Of a DNA stretch of 64,000 nt, positions 143 to 64,000 are shown piece by piece. Below the pieces are notes generated by a model. It saw nothing but the letters and a program-made list of their open reading frames with translations, did no database searches and was not told where the DNA came from. The stretch comes from Branchiostoma floridae. Taxonomy: Eukaryota > Chordata > Leptocardii > Amphioxiformes > Branchiostomatidae. Each line of letters starts with the position of its first letter. The stretch's first letter is position 1. The position numbers and the translations under genes are program-made. Location of the stretch: positions 19,596,953 to 19,660,952 of the forward strand of contig NC_049982.1 of NCBI RefSeq assembly GCF_000003815.2. The letters run 5' to 3'.

Positions 143-3100
143 GTGAGTACAACTTAGTTTGCCACTTCGAATTTGAATATTCTTGTATGATGTTTAGTTT
201 GGCTGCTGAGAACCGGCGACTGTACACACGAATGTTTGATAAAACTGCTTTCATCTGAGAATGGCATGGTCTGAACTTTTAACCCTTCACTTTAAAGTTG
301 ATCAGGTTCTACAAGTTATACGTTGTATACGTGAACATAGCTAACAGAAAAGCGCTTTTTTCGTGCTGTTAACGCTGCATGCCTGTCAGAGTTATTTACC
401 ATTCACTAGACCTTTAAATGGAATTTGGTACGACAAAAGGCATTTTCCACACGAAATAGATGTCGACATGGAAATGTACTTACATCGTTGAATTTTGAAC
501 AAAAAGATTCTATTATTCACTTTTTCAGGCAAGAATGTGTTGGTGGGTTCTTCTTGGGCTTAGCGTCTTTATTTTACCTGCTGGAAGTGTAAGTATTGTC
601 CCCTCGCTGACCCCGGAAATAACACTGATTAAAAGGAAATGTGTACATGCGTCAATACGTGTTGAGCTTGTGTAGCTTGGGACCAACCAAGAAGGATCGT
701 ATGAGGGCTGTCTATTAAAATTGGTAGCCATTTGTTAGGCCAGCGCTTCATGTATTTTTAAGTTTTGACAACCTTTATGTGCAATTATTCCCGTTGATTG
801 TTCTTCCGACGTCTTCACTTTATTTCATCAAGTTTTACAGATATACGGACCTCTTGGTTTGTCCCTTAAATGTCGTCATATCCCCCCACTCCTGATAACA
901 CGCGCAGGTGTAAAGGCGTACAGGATACCGTGTTAATGATTAAACATGTGTGGACGGATTATGTTGCTAAATAGTTGAGGACCATGACACTTGCTGGACT
1001 GTTATATAACACTTACGGGCTCTGCTAAAGTATTAAGTGATCAAAACGTAGCTATAGTGACAGAAAAAAATGTTCTGGAAAATTGTACAAACCAGACCGT
1101 CGATTGTGGCACCAAGCAACATTAGAATTGTTTCTAGGTCACAATACCAAAATATGCATCCAGATGATGCAATATTTTGAAACCTTTTTCGTCAATCAGC
1201 AATTCTGTGTTATTGATCAGGTAACTGGTACAGAAGCAAAGAGCATCTGGTGGTATTTTAAAAGTTGGAATACGGAATATGTACTAGCGTTAAATATGTG
1301 AAGGATTCCACTCACCTCGTGAGCGCCATGAACATCGCTCATTCAAAATTTAATGGCTGACATAAAGTTGAGGTAAAAAGAGGAAGTAAAACCATAGTTG
1401 CCTCTAATTGTGTTTGCACAACCAGTGACTCATCATGGTACTACGTATATTTCTTTCATCGTCTACGAGCTGCCAGAGTAAACATAATTGTTATTCGCGA
1501 TCGACACGACACAATATAGATATTGATTTAAACAGCAATGTCCCAGACTGCATGTACGTCTTGACATATTGTGCCTGGAGAGATCATGGTTATCGTGCGG
1601 AAGGTCGAAAGTTCGACGCTCGTTCATTTTTATTGACCATATCTTTTTCTGTCACTTCATATTTCCGAAGAATAAGCACCAACAGAAAGTATTCTTCTGC
1701 CTGCAGACTCTAAAATGATTCAAAATCAATGCACCTAGGTTCATGACGACGCCGTCGACACAACAACCATCAAGATGGAGGGACAGGGATCAGACAATGG
1801 TCCTCTGTTCCCGCCATCCTTTGCTCCAGCACCAGGGCCAATACCCTTGCCGACTTCTGGCATTGCTATGATCACCAAACCCCGGGCTTTCGTGCCCAAT
1901 GGTAGGAACAACATCATTTTTTCACTGGGAATGGAATGAACGTTTTTCGGAGCAAGAAATGAGAGAGTCGAAAGCCCACCTAATCGCACTATTAAACAAC
2001 ATGTCCACATTACAATACCTGCAACGATAGCGGCGTCTTTCCTCCATTATACATTTCTTCCCTTTATATTTACAGCCTTTTATTTATTTTCTATTCCCTG
2101 CAACACAGATAATTCAGAAGAGGATGGAAAAGATGGTAGGATTAGCATTGAGGCGGTGGTCATCCCCATTTTGTGCGGAGTGTTAGTCCTTGTGTTATTG
2201 GTTTGTTTGCCATGAGATACAGGGCAGCAAGGACAAACAAACACCAGGTAATTGTATTAAAGCACACTTACCTTGCCTTAGACCATATAGACTGTTTCAT
2301 TGATTAACTCGGTGGGCGTACTTTCTCCATAGAGTGCGGTCTTGCGCTGCTACTGCCATGAGTTCGATGTTATTCATGCCCAGGAAATGTTGCACAGGAA
2401 ATATTCCCTTATCACAGAGTGTAAACCTTTATCGAGCACGGGTCTGGCTTAAATGTCATGATCAAGATTTATACTTTTCAAAAATCTAATCATTTAATTT
2501 GTTCAAGGTTCCTTCCTGCCAACAATGTATCAGTTAATTTTCCAACTATGCTGCGAACACGCATCAAACGTTTATGAAATATGTAATTCAGTGCCTTCTA
2601 AATCTTTTTGTGTGAAAAAAAAATCAATCACACTGGGACGTTGAAATGGAAGACGTTTTTGAATGATTTTCTATTCGCTTTTTTTCACAGAGTTTAGAAG
2701 AGCATATAGAGCTGGAACGTGGTTCAGCCGGCAGGCGACACCTAGCGGTGGCGGACCAGATAGTGAATTCAACCTTCCAACCCCGGCGCTCTGATGAGTT
2801 GACGTTGGAAGTTCCTGTCGACTGTACGTATCCCCTTATGGCCGAAACTGATGAAAATAACCTGCCAACGGTAGATCAGACAGTGAACTCTACTTCTCTC
2901 CCTCAGAACACCTCCGAATCGTCCCTAGAGCCCTCAGTCGATTGTACCTGTCCGCTCATGGACTACACTGACAAAAACAACATTTTTCTCAACGACGGAC
3001 TGTCAAAGGACGATTCGCAGCCTAATTCTCTAAATCTCTGGCCAGGTCCCTCTGCAGAACCAACTCCCGTGACTTTTCAGAAAATGGCACCATCAAATCT

Positions 3101-4808
3101 CTACATCCACCAGTTTTCCCGCCATTTTGACCACGATGGCGGAAAGTTGGCTGTCCCGAAGTTGTCCGATGTGGAGGTCATCATCCCTCGCGGGGCCATC
3201 CCGAAAAACCTGAATGGCGAGCTGGCGATTGAAGCCCGTGTGGTTAGACCGGATATCAATTTGAACCTGGCGGCTGGTGCAGTAGAGGAGAAACGTTGTA
3301 CCGAGCACGAACTCCAGCTCTCCCCAGCAGTCGAAATGCTAGCAGAGGGAATACTGAAATTCGACAAACCTGTCACCATCCGAATCCCTCACCGCGCGAG
3401 CGTCGACAAAGCCGATTGGTCACCACGAGTGCAGTGCAGCGAATCACAGGTCGGCTCTCAGATGCAGTGGAAGGACATCCCTCCCGAGAGCAAGGACAAC
3501 AACTCTGCCTTGGTGGACTGCTGCTATACTTACGACGCCAGCTACGTCTACGTCAAAACTACGCATTTCACGACTTATGTGGTTACGGGGTGTTGTAAGA
3601 AAAGGAGAGCTCTGGACCTGCAGTGTGTCGTGTTCGGACAGTATGTGGAGCGTGGTGAGGAACAGGAGGTGATATTCAGGGTGTACCTGTGTGACACCAT
3701 AGTGGACCACCGTCAGGTATGTCCCCAAAGCCCACATTGATTTTTGCATGATGATACATTTTGTTATAACTAAATGGCATTGGACGAAGAACCAGTAACC
3801 TTCTTTATGTTCCATGTTGTCCCTAGAGTCTAAAGAGCGATGAGGGGCAGTGTGGCGGGCGGGAGGTGTGCATGCCGCGCCCGCTGAGCTTGGCTCATGG
3901 GAAGAGCGACATCATTGTGACGTTATTGGATGAGGTCAAAAAGAGCGAGCCACCTGTAAGTAGTTGGCCGTGGACCGTAGACAGCCTACATGGGACGCAG
4001 ACTAGTCAACAGGTATCTTTACCGAAAAAGTTTCTGAGGAAACTGTTGTGTGTTTATTTGTCACCTTCCTTATCCTTTCAATCAATTGACTAACTGCAAG
4101 ATGAGTTGTGAGCAGATGTGGTAACTACGGCGATGAGTTCACCTTTTATATTTGATATCCCAGTCCATAAAGGCCCAGAGCTGCATTAAATGTGTCAAGT
4201 GCAGCCCGGCACACAGAGCACCGTTCGCTCAGTTCATCTGCAAACCGACGGACCCGACTGCGAGACAGTCCCACATCGTGGCGTCATTCGAGGTCAAAGA
4301 GAGGCCCGCACGACGAAAGAAGACCGAGGTAGACGAACCCCTGATCATGAGCGTGAGGGACTTTGAACTTGTTAAGGTAAGTGTTGGCACCTCGAAAAAC
4401 TATCATGTTGATTTTCGTACAAAGCAGTCATTCAAAATCATCGATGTATACATCTAAAGATACACGCTTGCTCCTTTCCTTGTACAGCAACGAGCCAAGA
4501 CTATCACGTGTCAGTCTGTGCGAGAAGGGGACCTTGCCAAAATTGCTGAACTCATCCCTATAAAGGGAGTAAAACCCTTAGCCCGCCAGTATCTGGACCT
4601 CACCGATGTAGAGATACAGGCAATAGAGAGGGACCACCAGAATGACTCCAGAGAGCAAACGACCCAGTTTCTGCTGGCATGGAGGCGGAAGGAGGGTTCT
4701 CGTGCAACTCTTGACAAGTTGGTCAAGTCCCTGACATCTTGTGGTCTCCACGATGCTGCGGATGTCGTACGCCAAATGCATGCTTCACAGTGTGTTTCAC
4801 TTGCGTGA
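122..4808 (+). CDS. UNC5CL-like membrane protein: signal peptide, TM helix, ZU5, UPA and death domains (8 exons)
   Basis: Exons 122-142, 529-588, 1739-1901, 2109-2247, 2691-3716, 3827-3955, 4164-4376 and 4488-4808 join with GT-AG borders to about 690 residues. Residues 1-27 form a signal peptide (hydrophobic VLLGLSVFILPAGS). Residues 28-97 are a short Pro-rich ectodomain with no Ig or thrombospondin module. Residues 98-114 are a transmembrane helix followed by basic residues. The linker at about 150-230 holds a tandem duplication. ZU5 starts near 270 (FDHDGGKLAVP, then IPRGAIP), UPA spans about 425-575 and a death domain about 590-680. This is the intracellular order of UNC5 netrin receptors and UNC5CL, which signal through death-fold contacts. 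Length exceeds human UNC5CL (about 518). Exon 4 is one base short for its phase, giving a TGA after the helix; a one-base assembly error or a real frameshift are both possible. A lancelet-specific ZU5-death paralogue is an equally good name, so no symbol is given. Confidence 0.8.
529..588 (+). CDS. Gene 1 exon 2, signal peptide
   Basis: The acceptor TTTTTCAG precedes ARMCWWVLLGLSVFILPAGS, a classic hydrophobic core with small residues at the end, then the donor GTAAGT. Phase 0 at both ends. Cleavage would fall near the Ala-Gly-Ser at the exon end. Confidence 0.65.
1739..1901 (+). CDS. Gene 1 exon 3, Pro-rich ectodomain
   Basis: The acceptor CACCTAG is followed by an open phase-0 frame of 54 codons (VHDDAVDTTTIKMEG..., then a PPSFAPAPGPIPLP stretch) ending at donor G|GTAGGA in phase 1. 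There are no cysteines and no recognisable domain, so the extracellular part looks like a short stalk. It also lies opposite a minus-strand ORF that is only its shadow. Confidence 0.55.
2109..2247 (+). CDS. Gene 1 exon 4, transmembrane helix (apparent frameshift)
   Basis: After acceptor CAACACAG the frame reads DNSEEDGKDGRISIEA and then a hydrophobic VVIPILCGVLVLVLLVC helix. Immediately after it the frame hits TGA, while the +1-shifted frame continues FAMRYRAARTNKHQ, a normal basic stop-transfer tail, into donor CAG|GTAATT in phase 0, exactly the phase needed by exon 5. One missing T in the short T run at about 2205-2208 explains everything. This is either an assembly undercall or a disabling allele. 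Confidence 0.6.
2691..3716 (+). CDS. Gene 1 exon 5, duplicated linker and ZU5 domain
   Basis: 342 codons in phase 0, from acceptor TTTTTTTCACAG to donor CAG|GTATGT. The first third is an acidic linker with two 40-residue tandem copies, each containing DQxVNST and VDCTxPLM. From 3114 comes a ZU5 fold: FDHDGGKLAVP, VEVIIPRGAIPKN, ELQLSPAVEM, KPVTIRIPHRASV and the closing THFTTYVVTG. The UPA domain starts at RALDLQCVVFG. Of the overlapping open frames on both strands, only this one has domain structure. Confidence 0.88.
2754..2993 (+). repeat. 120-bp tandem duplication inside gene 1 linker
   Basis: Two adjacent coding units of 120 bp (starting at 2754 and 2874) encode DQIVNST...VDCTYPLM...DENN and DQTVNST...VDCTCPLM...DKNN. 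The unit length keeps the frame. The first copy has YPLM, which fits a Tyr-x-x-hydrophobic sorting signal; the second has CPLM and has lost the tyrosine. Confidence 0.75.
3827..3955 (+). CDS. Gene 1 exon 6, UPA domain part
   Basis: 43 phase-0 codons between acceptor GTCCCTAG and donor CCT|GTAAGT: SLKSDEGQCGGREVCMPRPL and on through KSDIIVTLLDEVKKSEPP. It continues the UPA beta-sandwich begun at the end of exon 5. Confidence 0.8.
4164..4376 (+). CDS. Gene 1 exon 7, end of UPA and hinge
   Basis: 71 phase-0 codons from acceptor ATATCCCAG to donor AAG|GTAAGT. Contains the Cys-containing segment SCIKCVKCSP, then the UPA strand SHIVASFEVKERP and a basic hinge ARRKKTE leading into the death domain. 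Confidence 0.8.
4488..4808 (+). CDS. Gene 1 exon 8, death domain and stop
   Basis: From acceptor CCTTGTACAG the frame encodes a complete death domain of about 85 residues: GDLAKIAELIPIKGVKPLAR, YLDLTDVEIQAIERDH, then the hallmark Trp in LLAWRRKEGSRATLDKLVKSL, and LHDAADVV. TGA at 4806-4808. Phase 0 entry agrees with exon 7. Death domains pair homotypically in receptor complexes. Confidence 0.9.
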   Translation, partial: QRAKTITCQSVREGDLAKIAELIPIKGVKPLARQYLDLTDVEIQAIERDHQNDSREQTTQFLLAWRRKEGSRATLDKLVKSLTSCGLHDAADVVRQMHASQCVSLA

Positions 4809-10174: not shown

Positions 10175-48466
<38,292 letters not shown>

Positions 48467-57800: not shown

Positions 57801-57871
57801 TCAAGTAGAGAGGGAGTAGGTAGTGACGGTGTGAGGGATGATCCAATGTTACACGCGGAATGGAGCACAAA

Positions 57872-57949
57872 AAAGGCCAAACGATAGTATTCAGTCTTCA
57901 GCCACTGTTGCAACAGTGGCTGAAGACTGAATACCATCGTTTGGTCTTT
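57872..57949. repeat. 78-bp loopless palindrome
   Basis: Two 39-bp arms meet at GTTG|CAAC (57910/57911) and pair with two mismatches (for example ACGATAGTATTC against GAATACCATCGT). With no loop it is not microRNA-like; a cruciform or collapsed MITE pair is more likely. Confidence 0.9.
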
Positions 57950-58911
57950 GCTGTGTGATAGTTGGTAGTAGTATAGCAACTTATAACGGAGGCCAAACTT
58001 TAATAGGTACAGAAAACATGCAAGCTAAATCCAACAGGTGGTTGAGTATCACGAACTTACAGTTTGCGCCATTGGGAGACTTCGGGTGGTCAGAGCTGGC
58101 CATTGCCCTGTATTACCAGCCCTTTGAGAGTAAGAGCAATTCTAACATCGTAATTTTTGTCTCGAGTTGGATGCAAGACAATTTTGTGAGTACGTTAAAT
58201 CAATGGTTAAATTCGATGCGTGCGACGATCGAATGGTCTATTCGATTTCGGAAGAAAGACTACTGTATGATCACGAATCAGATGACTAAGGGTCCTAGAC
58301 CCCCTCACCCTCCCCACAACATGAGAGGTTAAGAAATGTGCTAATCACCACCCTGTCCTTGTTTGGTGGACAGTCCCTACGCGCCACATTTCGTTGACAG
58401 GCGTGTGTCGTATCGTTTGCACCCGTGACCCGGGTTACGCCGCGCCGGTAGTTGGCACTAAAAGGGCGACGCCATTCGCTCCCGCCCTCACAAATATTAT
58501 GAGAGCAAGCCGAGCTCGCCTAAGAGAGGTGTACTAGCACGCTAGAACCAAGTCATATACGTGTAGCTATGCAGGGAAACAAAACAATACTGGACCGCAT
58601 ATCGTTGTGATCTCACTGCGCTCTGTGGTAGTGCCAAACGACAATTATGTGCAGTAACCCGAAAGAAGTTCCAGGAGCTCATCTCACGGTGCTGTGGTTT
58701 TGAGTCCCATGGTACACTGACTGTGTTGTGTTGTATTCAAAACCCTTACAGGTGGTTGAACCGAGATACGGGGGCGCTGAACCAAAACCACAAACAACAC
58801 TTGAAAAGACTCGGACAGGAGACAGGGCGTGACGGTGTATATCACGCAGGTGTGCCCAGTGCTCACCATAGCTCCAGAACGGTTCGTGTGTCAACGTTTG
58901 GTCGGCGGAAC

Positions 58912-59100
58912 ATGTCGTCTTCCCCAAGAAGCCCCACGCTCATCACCGCTAGGCTCTCCCCGCCCGGACAAATGTCCCGAATCAGCGACGACCAGGAGAG
59001 GATCCTGGAGTATAACTTCGGCCACCTGACGAAGACTCCCGATGGAATCACGCTGGAGATCATCGCTGCGGAGTCGGGATTGTCCGTGGAGGAAACAGCG
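58912..59100 (+). CDS. HOPX: HOPX coding exon 1
   Basis: MSSSPRSPTLITARLSPPGQ then the first two homeodomain helices, ending GLSVEETA at donor GCG|GTAAGA. The frame is open further upstream to 58723 but without an ATG. An acceptor CCCTTACAG at about 58751 may start this exon. Confidence 0.9.
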
Positions 59101-60801
59101 GTAAGATATACGTTAGCCTACGACGGTACTTCATTTTTCATTGTTGATTAGTGAACTCAAAGTGGTCTCTCTTTACAGCAATGTGCTACAAGTTAACCCA
59201 GAGATCACTATTGTGGTCGTTTCTCCTGTTTGTAGAATTTGTGGCGCCTATCTAAAGATGCATCCGTAAGTGTTTTTCATTCACAGCAAAAATATGAGCT
59301 TCGGAATGCCTCAAAAGGCATGACTAGTTGATATTTGTGGTTATCACGACAGAACAATACACGCATATGCTATTTGGATATTCAGGGTATACTAGTACAA
59401 ACTGGCGACAATTGATGACCATTAGAGGTACAATATAAGGTCTCTTACATAAGTAGATTTTCATTCCGAGGAGAACAAATATCTCGGATGTTGTTGTTTG
59501 TGCACAAAGGCCAGTTTGTGTTCATGTCAAACACGGACTCGGTCCTAACCCCGTTATCTCGGCTCTATCAAAGGAAAAAACATTAAAGGCTTCTTCTTGA
59601 GTCAAATGCATTGATGCTTACATAGCAATCTGTCTCAACAAATGCGATGCCTCCAATACCGGCTTACCCATTATGGTTTGAAATATAGAAGTCAGATTAT
59701 GATAGCAATCTTGACACACAAAAAACACACCCATATTCAAAGCCAGAATGTTTCACCAAGTCTTCACATCGCCGTCAACTTTAGTTTTGGAGAAGAAGTA
59801 AAATGAGGAGGAGGATAGTAAGGTGCTATTTTCCCGTCTTGTGGTAACGATCAGTCAACGCTCGTCTGCATGCCTGTCAATCATTGTCCATCCTTGAGAG
59901 TCATGTTTTCCCGTGGCGGATACGTGTGCGAGCGGTTGTGTACGGTTCGGATTCGCCCCGTCAGTTAAACAAACTCATTTAACCCACTTACCCTTCGGGC
60001 CAAGGAAAGTTACTCACGCTGAAAATGGGAAGTCGTGTCAGCAGGGGATTCCTTAGTGTGAGCCGGGCTGCGTGTGGTGTTCCCAAAATCGATTAACTCT
60101 CAAATCGTCTCTTAGTGAACTTAAGCTTCTTTTGCTCAACTATGAACTCTTCACTACTCCATTTGTTCCCAAGCAAATTGGTGCCTTCCTGACAGCATCT
60201 GACACTGCTTCCACCATTGTACTATAATACTCATTTGGAAAGGCGATAGTACATCAAACATAGCCTCCTTGACGAAACAATTTTCCTTGGAGCAACATAC
60301 CAACCTCTGAGACAATCCCAGACTAATATGTGGGCCAAAATGTCCCTTTTTGATAAAAGAGGACGAATCACTTACTACGCTCAACATGTGCTAGCAACGC
60401 AGTATAAAAACAGCACCCCTAATCAGACGTGTTTCGAGATGCCATCTACGATTGTTGATTAGCCTCTTGATATGTTGTCAAACTTGTCATAAAATACTCG
60501 AGACGGGTTGCGCTTCCGGTCATCAAAGTTGTATAAACTGGTGACGTCACACCTCCCGTCCTACCAACGTCATAAGTTAGGTTGTTAACGTATGCAACTT
60601 GAGTTGTCTTAAACAAAAGTATAAGCAGCTGTACAGTTATTATGGGTCCGGGTCTTAACTGCAAAGGCTTCATATCGAACTTGTCAACTTTTACTGATGC
60701 ACACATTCCTTTTCCCCACTCAGAAATGGTTCCAACATCGGTACGCCTTGTGGAGACAGAAAGAAGGCCTTCCACCCAACAGCGGAAGGGTAACAGACTA
60801 A
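58912..60801 (+). CDS. HOPX: HOPX orthologue, homeodomain-only protein (2 coding exons)
   Basis: Exons 58912-59100 and 60724-60801 join in phase 0 to 88 residues. The homeodomain (about residues 18-77) reads DDQERILEYNFGHLTKTPD, LEIIAAESGLSVEETA, then KWFQHRYALWRQKEGLP; the protein ends RVTD. It matches human HOPX (EILEYNF..., LIAAEAGLSEEETQ, KWFKQRLAKWRRSEGLP, VTD end) without gaps across the splice. HOPX in vertebrates is a nuclear cofactor that does not bind DNA and modulates SRF-type transcription in heart and stem cells. Here homeodomain Asn51 is His and Arg53 is Tyr, so DNA binding is likewise unlikely. Start: ATG at 58912 has A at -3; a second ATG at 58972 would give 68 residues, nearer the human 73. 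Confidence 0.93.
60724..60801 (+). CDS. HOPX: HOPX coding exon 2
   Basis: Acceptor TTTTCCCCACTCAG; 25 codons KWFQHRYALWRQKEGLPPNS then GRVTD and TAA. Encodes homeodomain helix 3 and the conserved HOPX C-terminus. Too short to stand out as an open frame by itself. Confidence 0.93.
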   Translation, partial: KWFQHRYALWRQKEGLPPNSGRVTD

Positions 60802-62901
60802 CAGCGAGCGTACAGAACTCACCACTGCCAGGGAGTGACAACGACAACGTACTCAACATAGTATGGCACTGGTCATCCCATAGCCTTCATTGTTACAAAC
60901 TTCAACATTCACACAGGGCTAGTTTATTTGACAACTTGACAGGTGGCGTTCAGGAAAGGAAGAGTTATACTGTATGGGAATTTCAATTTAGCAGAGATAG
61001 AAATTAAGATTTGTGAGAGGGGCAAGGAAAGTTTTCAGAACCTTCAGTGACAGTGACCTGTAAAATGGATTAATCCTTATGGAAGTGTAAATGTCTACGT
61101 CTTAGTGGTCTTGTCTTTCTAGAGAAAAAAAATGACATCTCCAAACTTGACATTTTCGTACAGATAAGTTCTCCGCTGCTTCACCTCAATCAAGTATGAA
61201 GGTATTTTGTCGATCTAGGGACTAGATATGTATAGATATACAAATACATGTATTTGTATATCGTGTGATGTCCATGTATATTTCATTGTATATGTTTTAT
61301 TTAAGTTGCGGCTGTGCACGCAAAGCCACAAAGCAATGTGAGGAGAAGACAATATGTGTATCTCTTGATATTTGTAAACGTGTTCATGCAAGCTGTGTTT
61401 ATTTAAAGAAGAGAAGGAATGGCGGATTATGGATGACTGAAACAAAAACGTAATTACCTCCATGAAATGTCATGGAATGGAGGTTATATTTTCTGTTATG
61501 TGTCTCTGTCTGTGTAGATGATTACTCAAGAACGGCTGGATGGATTGGTTTCATACTTGTTGTGTTGGTGGGGTGTGATGAAAGCTCGAATCGATGAGAT
61601 TTTGGGAGCCGTATCTGTCGTTATAATCGATGTAATAATATCAGAAATCACCCCTATATTTGAGATATATTGGTACAGGCATCGTGCTTTATGTGTTTGT
61701 TAATTTGCTTAGCTCCAAGCAGATGGTGAGGTGACAGCTGTTAGCAGACGGGGTTAGCGCCAAGTATTCATCTTACAGTTGGTGTAGGGCTGTCAGAGGA
61801 AAGTGTGCATCTCGTTTTTGTACCGTGTGAACAGCTGATGTTATGACATATTGGTGGAAAATCAAATCACCATCTGACTAAAGTTGGCCACATCCCTTCT
61901 TCTTTCTGAGTTTTCCAACTTCCTCCCACCACACAGCTCTGAGGCACATAGTCGAACCTCAATAATGCTGACAACCTTTGACATTTTAAATGCCAAACAT
62001 CAAGGATCATCAAGCTTAATGAACACCACGCTACCATATGCCGTCGAGTGGCGTCGACCTCTTAAACGCACATTACACAATTAAGTGTCTGATTTTACTA
62101 ATCAGATGGACATCCTCTGTGTCATTAAATAAATACACCACTACTTTCCCATAACATTTATATTATATAACCATTACTCTCAAATACAACCGACTATAAA
62201 CATACATACCATCCACAAAAAAGCAATAAATATTTCATGGAGGTATGAGGTCCCCGAACTCTAGTTTATCTATGTATTATTTACTGTAGTGATCAATCTA
62301 TATGATCTAGTAGCAAATGATGGGATCGATAAATGCAAAGTCCGGATGTTCATCGGACATTTGTATGTCTGTTTCCGTTTTCATGTTGTATAGTCATTGC
62401 AATATTTGTGGAACGGCGGAACAATTACAGAATTTCATCTTGATTCAGCCTGTATTGAGATGACTAGGGTTTAATAAAACATATGGTTGATTATTTTGCC
62501 TGAATGTTTTACAATTTACGAGCTTAGCGTCTAGTTGTGTCAGTGACATAAACATGGACTGCGCCTATCGTGCCAATGCAAAACATCCCAATGACTGCCC
62601 CAACTTTGTGCTCTAAACTCAGTGTTGTATATTTTGCCGTTCTGTCCAATATTCTGGTGTGATTAAGCCACCAAAGCACAATTTTCATAGAACAGTTGTG
62701 TATTTTATCGAGTCACATGTTGGGATGCAATATCACAATTAAACACATGAATATCTAAAGTTTGTACTCTTTGATGTTTAGAAGTGGTATCGAGCACCTC
62801 TTGTATAAGTAACGTTAGCCATTACCTCTCCACGGGTCAGACCTTCACGGCAGCTTGATTACATAAAAGCTCTCATGTACGCATAAAAGTCCTCTCAGTA
62901 A
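60802..62901. other. HOPX 3' flank and intergenic DNA
   Basis: No gene recognised. Contains the hairpin-led repeat (61452-61720), an inverted relative of its end at 62226-62270, and AATAAA motifs near 62125 and 62226 that might serve a long HOPX 3' UTR. Confidence 0.45.
61452..61720 (+). repeat. Hairpin-led dispersed repeat, copy 2
   Basis: AATTACCTCCATGAAATGTC and its inverted partner CATGGAATGGAGGT form a stem-loop, followed by TTAT, a TCTGTCTGTG run and ACTCAAGAACGGCTGGATGG, the same layout as at 5096. An ATTTCATGGAGGTATGAGG end lies inverted at 62231. Confidence 0.5.
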
Positions 62902-63681
62902 TACCCGCCTCACATTATATACGATCTTCGGACGTACTTCGCGATCGCAGGAAGGTCGGCTGATTTTAAGATCTTAAGATGGTCTTGCGTATTTTTCGCC
63001 CAGAACCTGTTCCCCTCACATATAAGCGAGCCTCGTGCGATCGACGGCGAATAAATCTATGATAATGAACCTCCCATGACCTCTTGCACGCGGACAAGGG
63101 AATACAAAACGTTCCTGTTGTCGGAATCTTTTTAACCAATGAATGGAATGCGCGGGCATTATAGAAATGACGCAAGAAAAGAAAGTGTGTCGCAAAGCCA
63201 GCCTACATACTGCCACAGGAGCCACAATGTTAGAATTACCCTCACATTCCCAGAAATTCAATATTTGTTAACAATCGGAAGTCGGGTGAACGTCGCCCGA
63301 ATGTCGCCCGACTAACGGGCGTTCGCCATCCGATTTGCGTTCGATGATTAATAACTATGTCTGTGCTCGCCTATCGGTCTTCAATCGTTGGATTGACGCA
63401 AGACTATTGACCGATACCCTTGCGAGGTACGCACGATTTGCACGCACGATCTGCGACTCGGTAACGAGCTCTACGATCTTGGATATCTCCTGCGACTTGT
63501 CGCTTATGTTTAAGAACATGTTTCGCTGCACCGCGACCGCCGTAAGACTCCTGAAAATTGCCGGCGATCCCTAAAAATCGCAAGATGATCGTGAGAACAC
63601 CGAACGTCTTACTCACGAAAATGTCATTTAGAGCTCGTAAACTAGTCTTCCGATCGAATCGCGCCTAATGTGAGGCGGGTA
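62902..63681. mobile_element. Harbinger-type non-autonomous element, 780 bp, TAA target-site duplication
   Basis: Termini TACCCGCCTCACATTA and TAATGTGAGGCGGGTA are perfect 16-bp inverted repeats flanked by TAA at 62899-62901 and 63682-63684; a 3-bp TWA duplication is the PIF/Harbinger signature. The interior is rich in CGATC, GTCGCCCG and CGACTTGTCG motifs, with no transposase frame. Confidence 0.8.
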
Positions 63682-64000
63682 TAAGGGGCCGGTCACGTGA
63701 AGATCGTACGAAAGTCTTGGGATAGTCGTGGAAATGTCCTGCAAAATTCAGCTGCATTAAAGGCTGTGTAAGTTACTGTAAAAGCGGTCTTCGGTTCTAT
63801 CACAACATTTTACAGCGTCAACATAGTACGACTTTCTACGATTACGTAATGTGATTGTTACGTAAATCAAACTTTTTTCTTTTGTACCCTTTCTTGCAGA
63901 CACACTCGTAGTTTCCTACTGTTGTGAACCCAATATCGCTACAGCATGTGTGCAACTGTAGACGTGATTTCAAGGTTCGACGTCTTTTCTTCTGTTACAA
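63682..64000. other. Window end, no gene seen
   Basis: Begins with GGGGCCGGTCACGTGAAGATC, whose GATCGTACGAAAGTC motifs resemble the interior of the Harbinger-type element, so a second related repeat may start here and leave the window. No coding sequence recognised. Confidence 0.3.

Follow-up and report, generated by a model that had tools for sequence, protein, structure and literature searches.

HOPX in the lancelet Branchiostoma floridae, a homeodomain protein without the usual DNA-contact residues

Judged by its sequence, the gene described here is an ordinary orthologue of a known family: lancelet HOPX, a small and divergent homeodomain protein of the PRD class. The explanation that best joins the observations, and that we consider very probable, is that this orthologue lost most of its DNA contacts on the HOPX stem and, without specific DNA binding, would act as a co-regulator.

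Gene model and genomic surroundings

The gene is located within a 64-kb window (the whole stretch of DNA that was analysed, C4:19596953-19660952) and comprises the following features:

58912..59100, + strand: HOPX coding exon 1, with the N-terminal 20 residues and the homeodomain to position 46 (helices I and II)
59101..60723, + strand: HOPX intron, phase-0 GT-AG, 1623 bp, at homeodomain position 46/47
60724..60801, + strand: HOPX coding exon 2, with recognition helix KWFQHRYALWR, EGLP motif, VTD terminus and stop
58972..58974, + strand: second in-frame ATG (residue 21), a candidate alternative start that directly precedes the conserved homeodomain portion
62128, 62225 and 62473 (span 62128..62478), + strand: candidate polyadenylation signals AATAAA, by pattern match only

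Exon 1 is translated into 63 residues (MSSSPRSPTLITARLSPPGQMSRISDDQERILEYNFGHLTKTPDGITLEIIAAESGLSVEETA) and exon 2 into KWFQHRYALWRQKEGLPPNSGRVTD, followed by the stop codon; joined (MSSSPRSPTLITARLSPPGQMSRISDDQERILEYNFGHLTKTPDGITLEIIAAESGLSVEETA / KWFQHRYALWRQKEGLPPNSGRVTD) they yield a protein of 88 residues with RVTD as its C-terminus. The intron has a GTAAGA donor and a pyrimidine-rich CAG acceptor. Upstream of 58912 the open frame of exon 1 (58567-59148) contains no further in-frame ATG, and if translation were to begin at 58972, the protein would count 68 residues and begin nearly at the homeodomain.

We used mouse HOPX as a query against all stop-to-stop ORFs of at least 15 residues in the window. 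The ORF of exon 1 was matched with 31.5 bits (E 2.5e-8) and that of exon 2 with 25.3 bits (E 2.2e-6), and there was no third significant match among the window ORFs (next best E 3.2). That the exons represent a pseudogene or chance ORFs is hardly credible: both are open, the splice sites follow the consensus, the terminus is conserved, and the 25.3 bits of the weaker exon were reached in none of 100 simulated windows with matched dinucleotide frequencies (top score 12.3 bits), a control that rules out chance ORFs. By sequence criteria lancelet HOPX is a real gene, and the sequence-only reading was right in stating that two exons, here joined across a phase-0 GT-AG intron and both matched by mouse HOPX, reconstruct a full homeodomain-only protein ending in VTD.

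In the genome (513,431,437 bases in 431 contigs) the only match to the DNA of exon 1 is its own locus, in a DNA search that diverged copies may escape. A homeodomain search of the genome resulted in at least 135 matches (150 of 246 candidates scored); HOPX is not among the matches listed, probably because single exons score too weakly. Fourteen of the listed matches are found on contig C16 at 10.30-10.64 Mb, in a run that looks like a Hox cluster. Loci of the PAICS family (SAICAR-synthetase), a marker of human 4q12, were found at C5:836233-840526 and C6:5916494-5918577 and not on C4 with HOPX, so that synteny with human 4q12 received no support from this one marker. Two of the four PAICS family matches on C5 contain internal stop codons, possibly just introns that are read through.

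The window contains a number of other features. A nearly perfect palindrome of 90 bp, whose 45-nt arms are 91% complementary and abut without a spacer, lies at 57866-57955, roughly 950 bp ahead of the HOPX start codon; it is like a hairpin or a small mobile element. Downstream of HOPX, perfect 17-nt inverted repeats (ATACCCGCCTCACATTA) at 62901-63682, with 748 bp between them, resemble the termini of a non-autonomous DNA transposon. Among the ORFs at 2667-4805, which perhaps form a single ankyrin- or UNC5-type gene, the domains recognised are ZU5 (E 1.1e-13) and Death (E 2.3e-17). Ankyrin-repeat ORFs at 42902-46088, the last of 462 residues, are reminiscent of ANKRD55.

Membership of the HOPX family

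A PDB search with lancelet HOPX returned two entries for homeodomain only protein as top matches, 1uhs (E 1e-17) and 2hi3 (E 1.5e-17), both of which we take to be from mouse. They are followed by two designed dTor proteins (E 2.4e-4 and 5.2e-4, through repeated weak stretches), and the nearest homeodomain outside HOPX is that of PAX6 (E 9.7e-4). The Pfam Homeodomain profile scores 25.4 bits (cut-off 22.9). The alignment to mouse HOPX is ungapped, with 36 of 67 residues identical (a moderate 54%) and the insertion included, and the single gap relative to PAX6 is a one-residue insertion between helices I and II that results in a homeodomain of 61 residues. With 88 residues (68 from Met21) and its VTD end, the protein barely exceeds the homeodomain in length.

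As far as the available text of these papers goes, the one-residue insertion is a trait of HOPX (Holland et al. 2007, PMC2211742; PMC2533040), and human HOPX, like many PRD genes, has an intron at homeodomain position 46/47 (Holland et al. 2007, PMC2211742). The lancelet donor follows residue 46 and the acceptor precedes Lys47, matching this intron; the chicken coding intron is placed between the first and second helices in the portion of PMC2533040 at hand, which is at odds with 46/47.

In a tree of 19 rows (one vertebrate HOPX, and outgroup homeodomains entered by hand save nearly all of PAX6), lancelet HOPX groups with mouse HOPX in the one clade that is starred, with support 99/98. Membership of another homeobox class is ruled out by this clade together with the PDB ranking (1e-17 against about 1e-3 for PAX6), and the same evidence, along with the insertion, the 46/47 intron and the C-terminus, bears out the HOPX identity first proposed from the letters.

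Lancelet and vertebrate HOPX have in common the 61-residue homeodomain with its insertion, the 46/47 intron, the EGLP...VTD terminus, the absence of Arg31, Asn51 and Arg53, and the replacement of Val/Ile47 by Lys47; should translation begin at the first ATG, lancelet HOPX would differ from the vertebrate protein by 20 additional N-terminal residues ahead of Met21. A homeodomain recognisable by sequence also occurs in PAX6, GSC and further members of the PRD class, many of which have the 46/47 intron as well, but PAX6 keeps Asn51, Arg53 and Arg31 and lacks the insertion. The same holds for GSC and other PRD-class homeodomains, which are DNA-binding, as is PAX6. Mollusc Hopx (Crassostrea CGI_10009529 and others) belongs to the same family according to the tree in the accessible part of PMC5322547, where two oysters group with 100% bootstrap and together with a snail with 67%.

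Contact positions and timing of the loss

Numbered as in PAX6, lancelet and mouse HOPX are identical at Leu31, Lys47, Trp48, Phe49, Arg52, Ala54, Trp56 and Arg57, and differ (lancelet/mouse) at 25 (Thr/His), 44 (Glu/Gln), 46 (Ala/Gln), 50 (Gln/Lys), 51 (His/Gln), 53 (Tyr/Leu), 55 (Leu/Glu) and 58 (Gln/Arg). This agrees with the sequence-only reading as to Gln50, His51 and Tyr53 in the lancelet and Lys50 in the vertebrate protein, the latter as seen in mouse. At positions 25, 31, 47, 51, 53 and 55, which we take to be the DNA-contact positions of the homeodomain, lancelet HOPX is unlike PAX6 in six out of six cases, and Tyr25, Arg31, Val/Ile47, Asn51, Arg53 and Lys55 are absent from both lancelet and mouse HOPX; the canonical Asn51 and Arg53 are replaced by His51 and Tyr53 in the lancelet. 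Lancelet HOPX has Gly3 and Met5 where PAX6 has Arg at both positions. Over the homeodomain stretch, the lancelet protein (61 residues) and the mouse protein (57 residues) both carry a net charge of -3, and 17 other homeodomains (entered by hand) range from +2 to +13.

At positions 46 and 58 it is mouse HOPX that retains the PAX6 residue and lancelet HOPX that departs from it. Human HOPX retains Lys55, so that mouse is not the least-changed vertebrate HOPX at every position. The pattern is a mosaic and not a series, since lancelet HOPX is more ordinary only at position 50 and less so at 46, at 58 and, relative to human HOPX, at 55.

This bears on the proposal, made from the letters alone, that lancelet HOPX is an intermediate stage, caught part-way in losing DNA binding with Gln50 kept and Asn51 and Arg53 gone. 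Gln is the commonest canonical residue at position 50, and a single base change separates the codon of His51 (CAT) from an Asn codon, and likewise from the Gln codons, which makes Asn to His to Gln a short path. Position 50 is, however, a specificity residue, and Lys50 is equally ordinary, being the normal state in K50 homeodomains such as GSC, OTX2 and PITX2 (GSC and Pitx are Lys50 families), so Gln50 does not signal that DNA binding was retained. It may even be that Lys50 came first and Gln50 later, because the nearest ordinary relatives are, in the available text of the two reports, GSC for human HOPX (38%, PMC2211742) and, for chicken Hop, Pitx of amphioxus (47%, PMC2533040). Given also that lancelet HOPX is as non-canonical as mouse at the six contact positions, has lost the Arg58 kept in mouse, carries an equal net charge and has the longer branch, we regard a protein part-way through the loss as quite improbable, and the term intermediate is not supported.

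In the 19-row tree the shared HOPX stem measures 2.74 and the tips 0.93 (lancelet) and 0.22 (mouse); with 17 rows and three models the stem measures 1.74, 1.53 and 1.37, the lancelet tip 0.87, 0.80 and 0.69 and the mouse tip 0.26, 0.22 and 0.25, where stem length confounds loss of constraint with time and is based on one vertebrate HOPX and hand-entered outgroups. In all four models the stem exceeds either tip, so that change in HOPX seems mostly to predate the split of lancelets and vertebrates, and the lancelet tip exceeds that of mouse: lancelet HOPX seems to have changed more since the split.

A separate loss of Asn51 in lancelets and in vertebrates, from a DNA-binding ancestor, would suit the fact that the two lineages disagree at residue 51 (His against Gln) and at residue 53 (Tyr against Leu), and for residue 51 alone both histories are equally short at the amino-acid level. 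At the level of base changes the short path from Asn via His to Gln mildly favours an early non-Asn state at this position, and this is the single argument for the order of events proposed from the letters. But the identical Leu31 and Lys47, the common insertion and the long stem place the bulk of the change ahead of the split, which makes two separate losses unlikely. The claim that Asn51 was lost before the vertebrates survives in part: residue 51 alone cannot date the loss, because it is His in the lancelet and Gln in mouse, while the usual set of DNA contacts was probably gone before lancelets and vertebrates diverged, for which Leu31, Lys47 and the insertion, common to both, are stronger dating evidence. 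Our preferred reading is that the contacts would mostly have been lost on the HOPX stem, ahead of the split, and that positions 50, 51, 53 and 55, once freed, may then have drifted in each lineage.

The loss may be far older, since HOPX has been published from molluscs: within the text available, Paps et al. 2015 (PMC5322547) report Hopx there and trace the family back to the base of Bilateria, the earlier list of Holland et al. 2007 (PMC2211742) gave HOPX with no invertebrate orthologues, and a tree separates the lophotrochozoan family Lopx from every PRD family but Hopx (PMC6118893).

Proposed function and meaning

Lancelet HOPX would fold as a homeodomain, would lack specific DNA binding and would, by homology, serve as a protein-protein co-regulator as in vertebrates. 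In the accessible text of the respective papers, an EMSA with five probes, comprising four homeodomain sites and one bHLH site, showed no binding by chicken Hop (PMC2533040), and vertebrate HOPX binds SRF and recruits HDAC2 (the review PMC9179269; PMC12608687). By homology, the role of lancelet HOPX is most likely of the same kind as that of vertebrate HOPX. A surviving transition form, with weak or altered-specificity DNA contacts made by Gln50, His51, Lys47 and Arg57, is very improbable.

The B. floridae homeobox survey of Takatori 2008 reportedly lists Hopx. Because of the material used by Paps et al. (PMC5322547, available text), the gene has probably already been catalogued for B. floridae. 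In the available portions of the literature examined we did not find amphioxus Hopx in print by name, gene or residues, nor a residue comparison of lancelet and mouse HOPX.

Lancelet HOPX can serve as an outgroup to its vertebrate counterpart and suggests that the co-regulator state goes back at least as far as the chordates. Consequently, a DNA-binding ancestor of HOPX would have to be sought in molluscs or other bilaterians, and not in lancelets.
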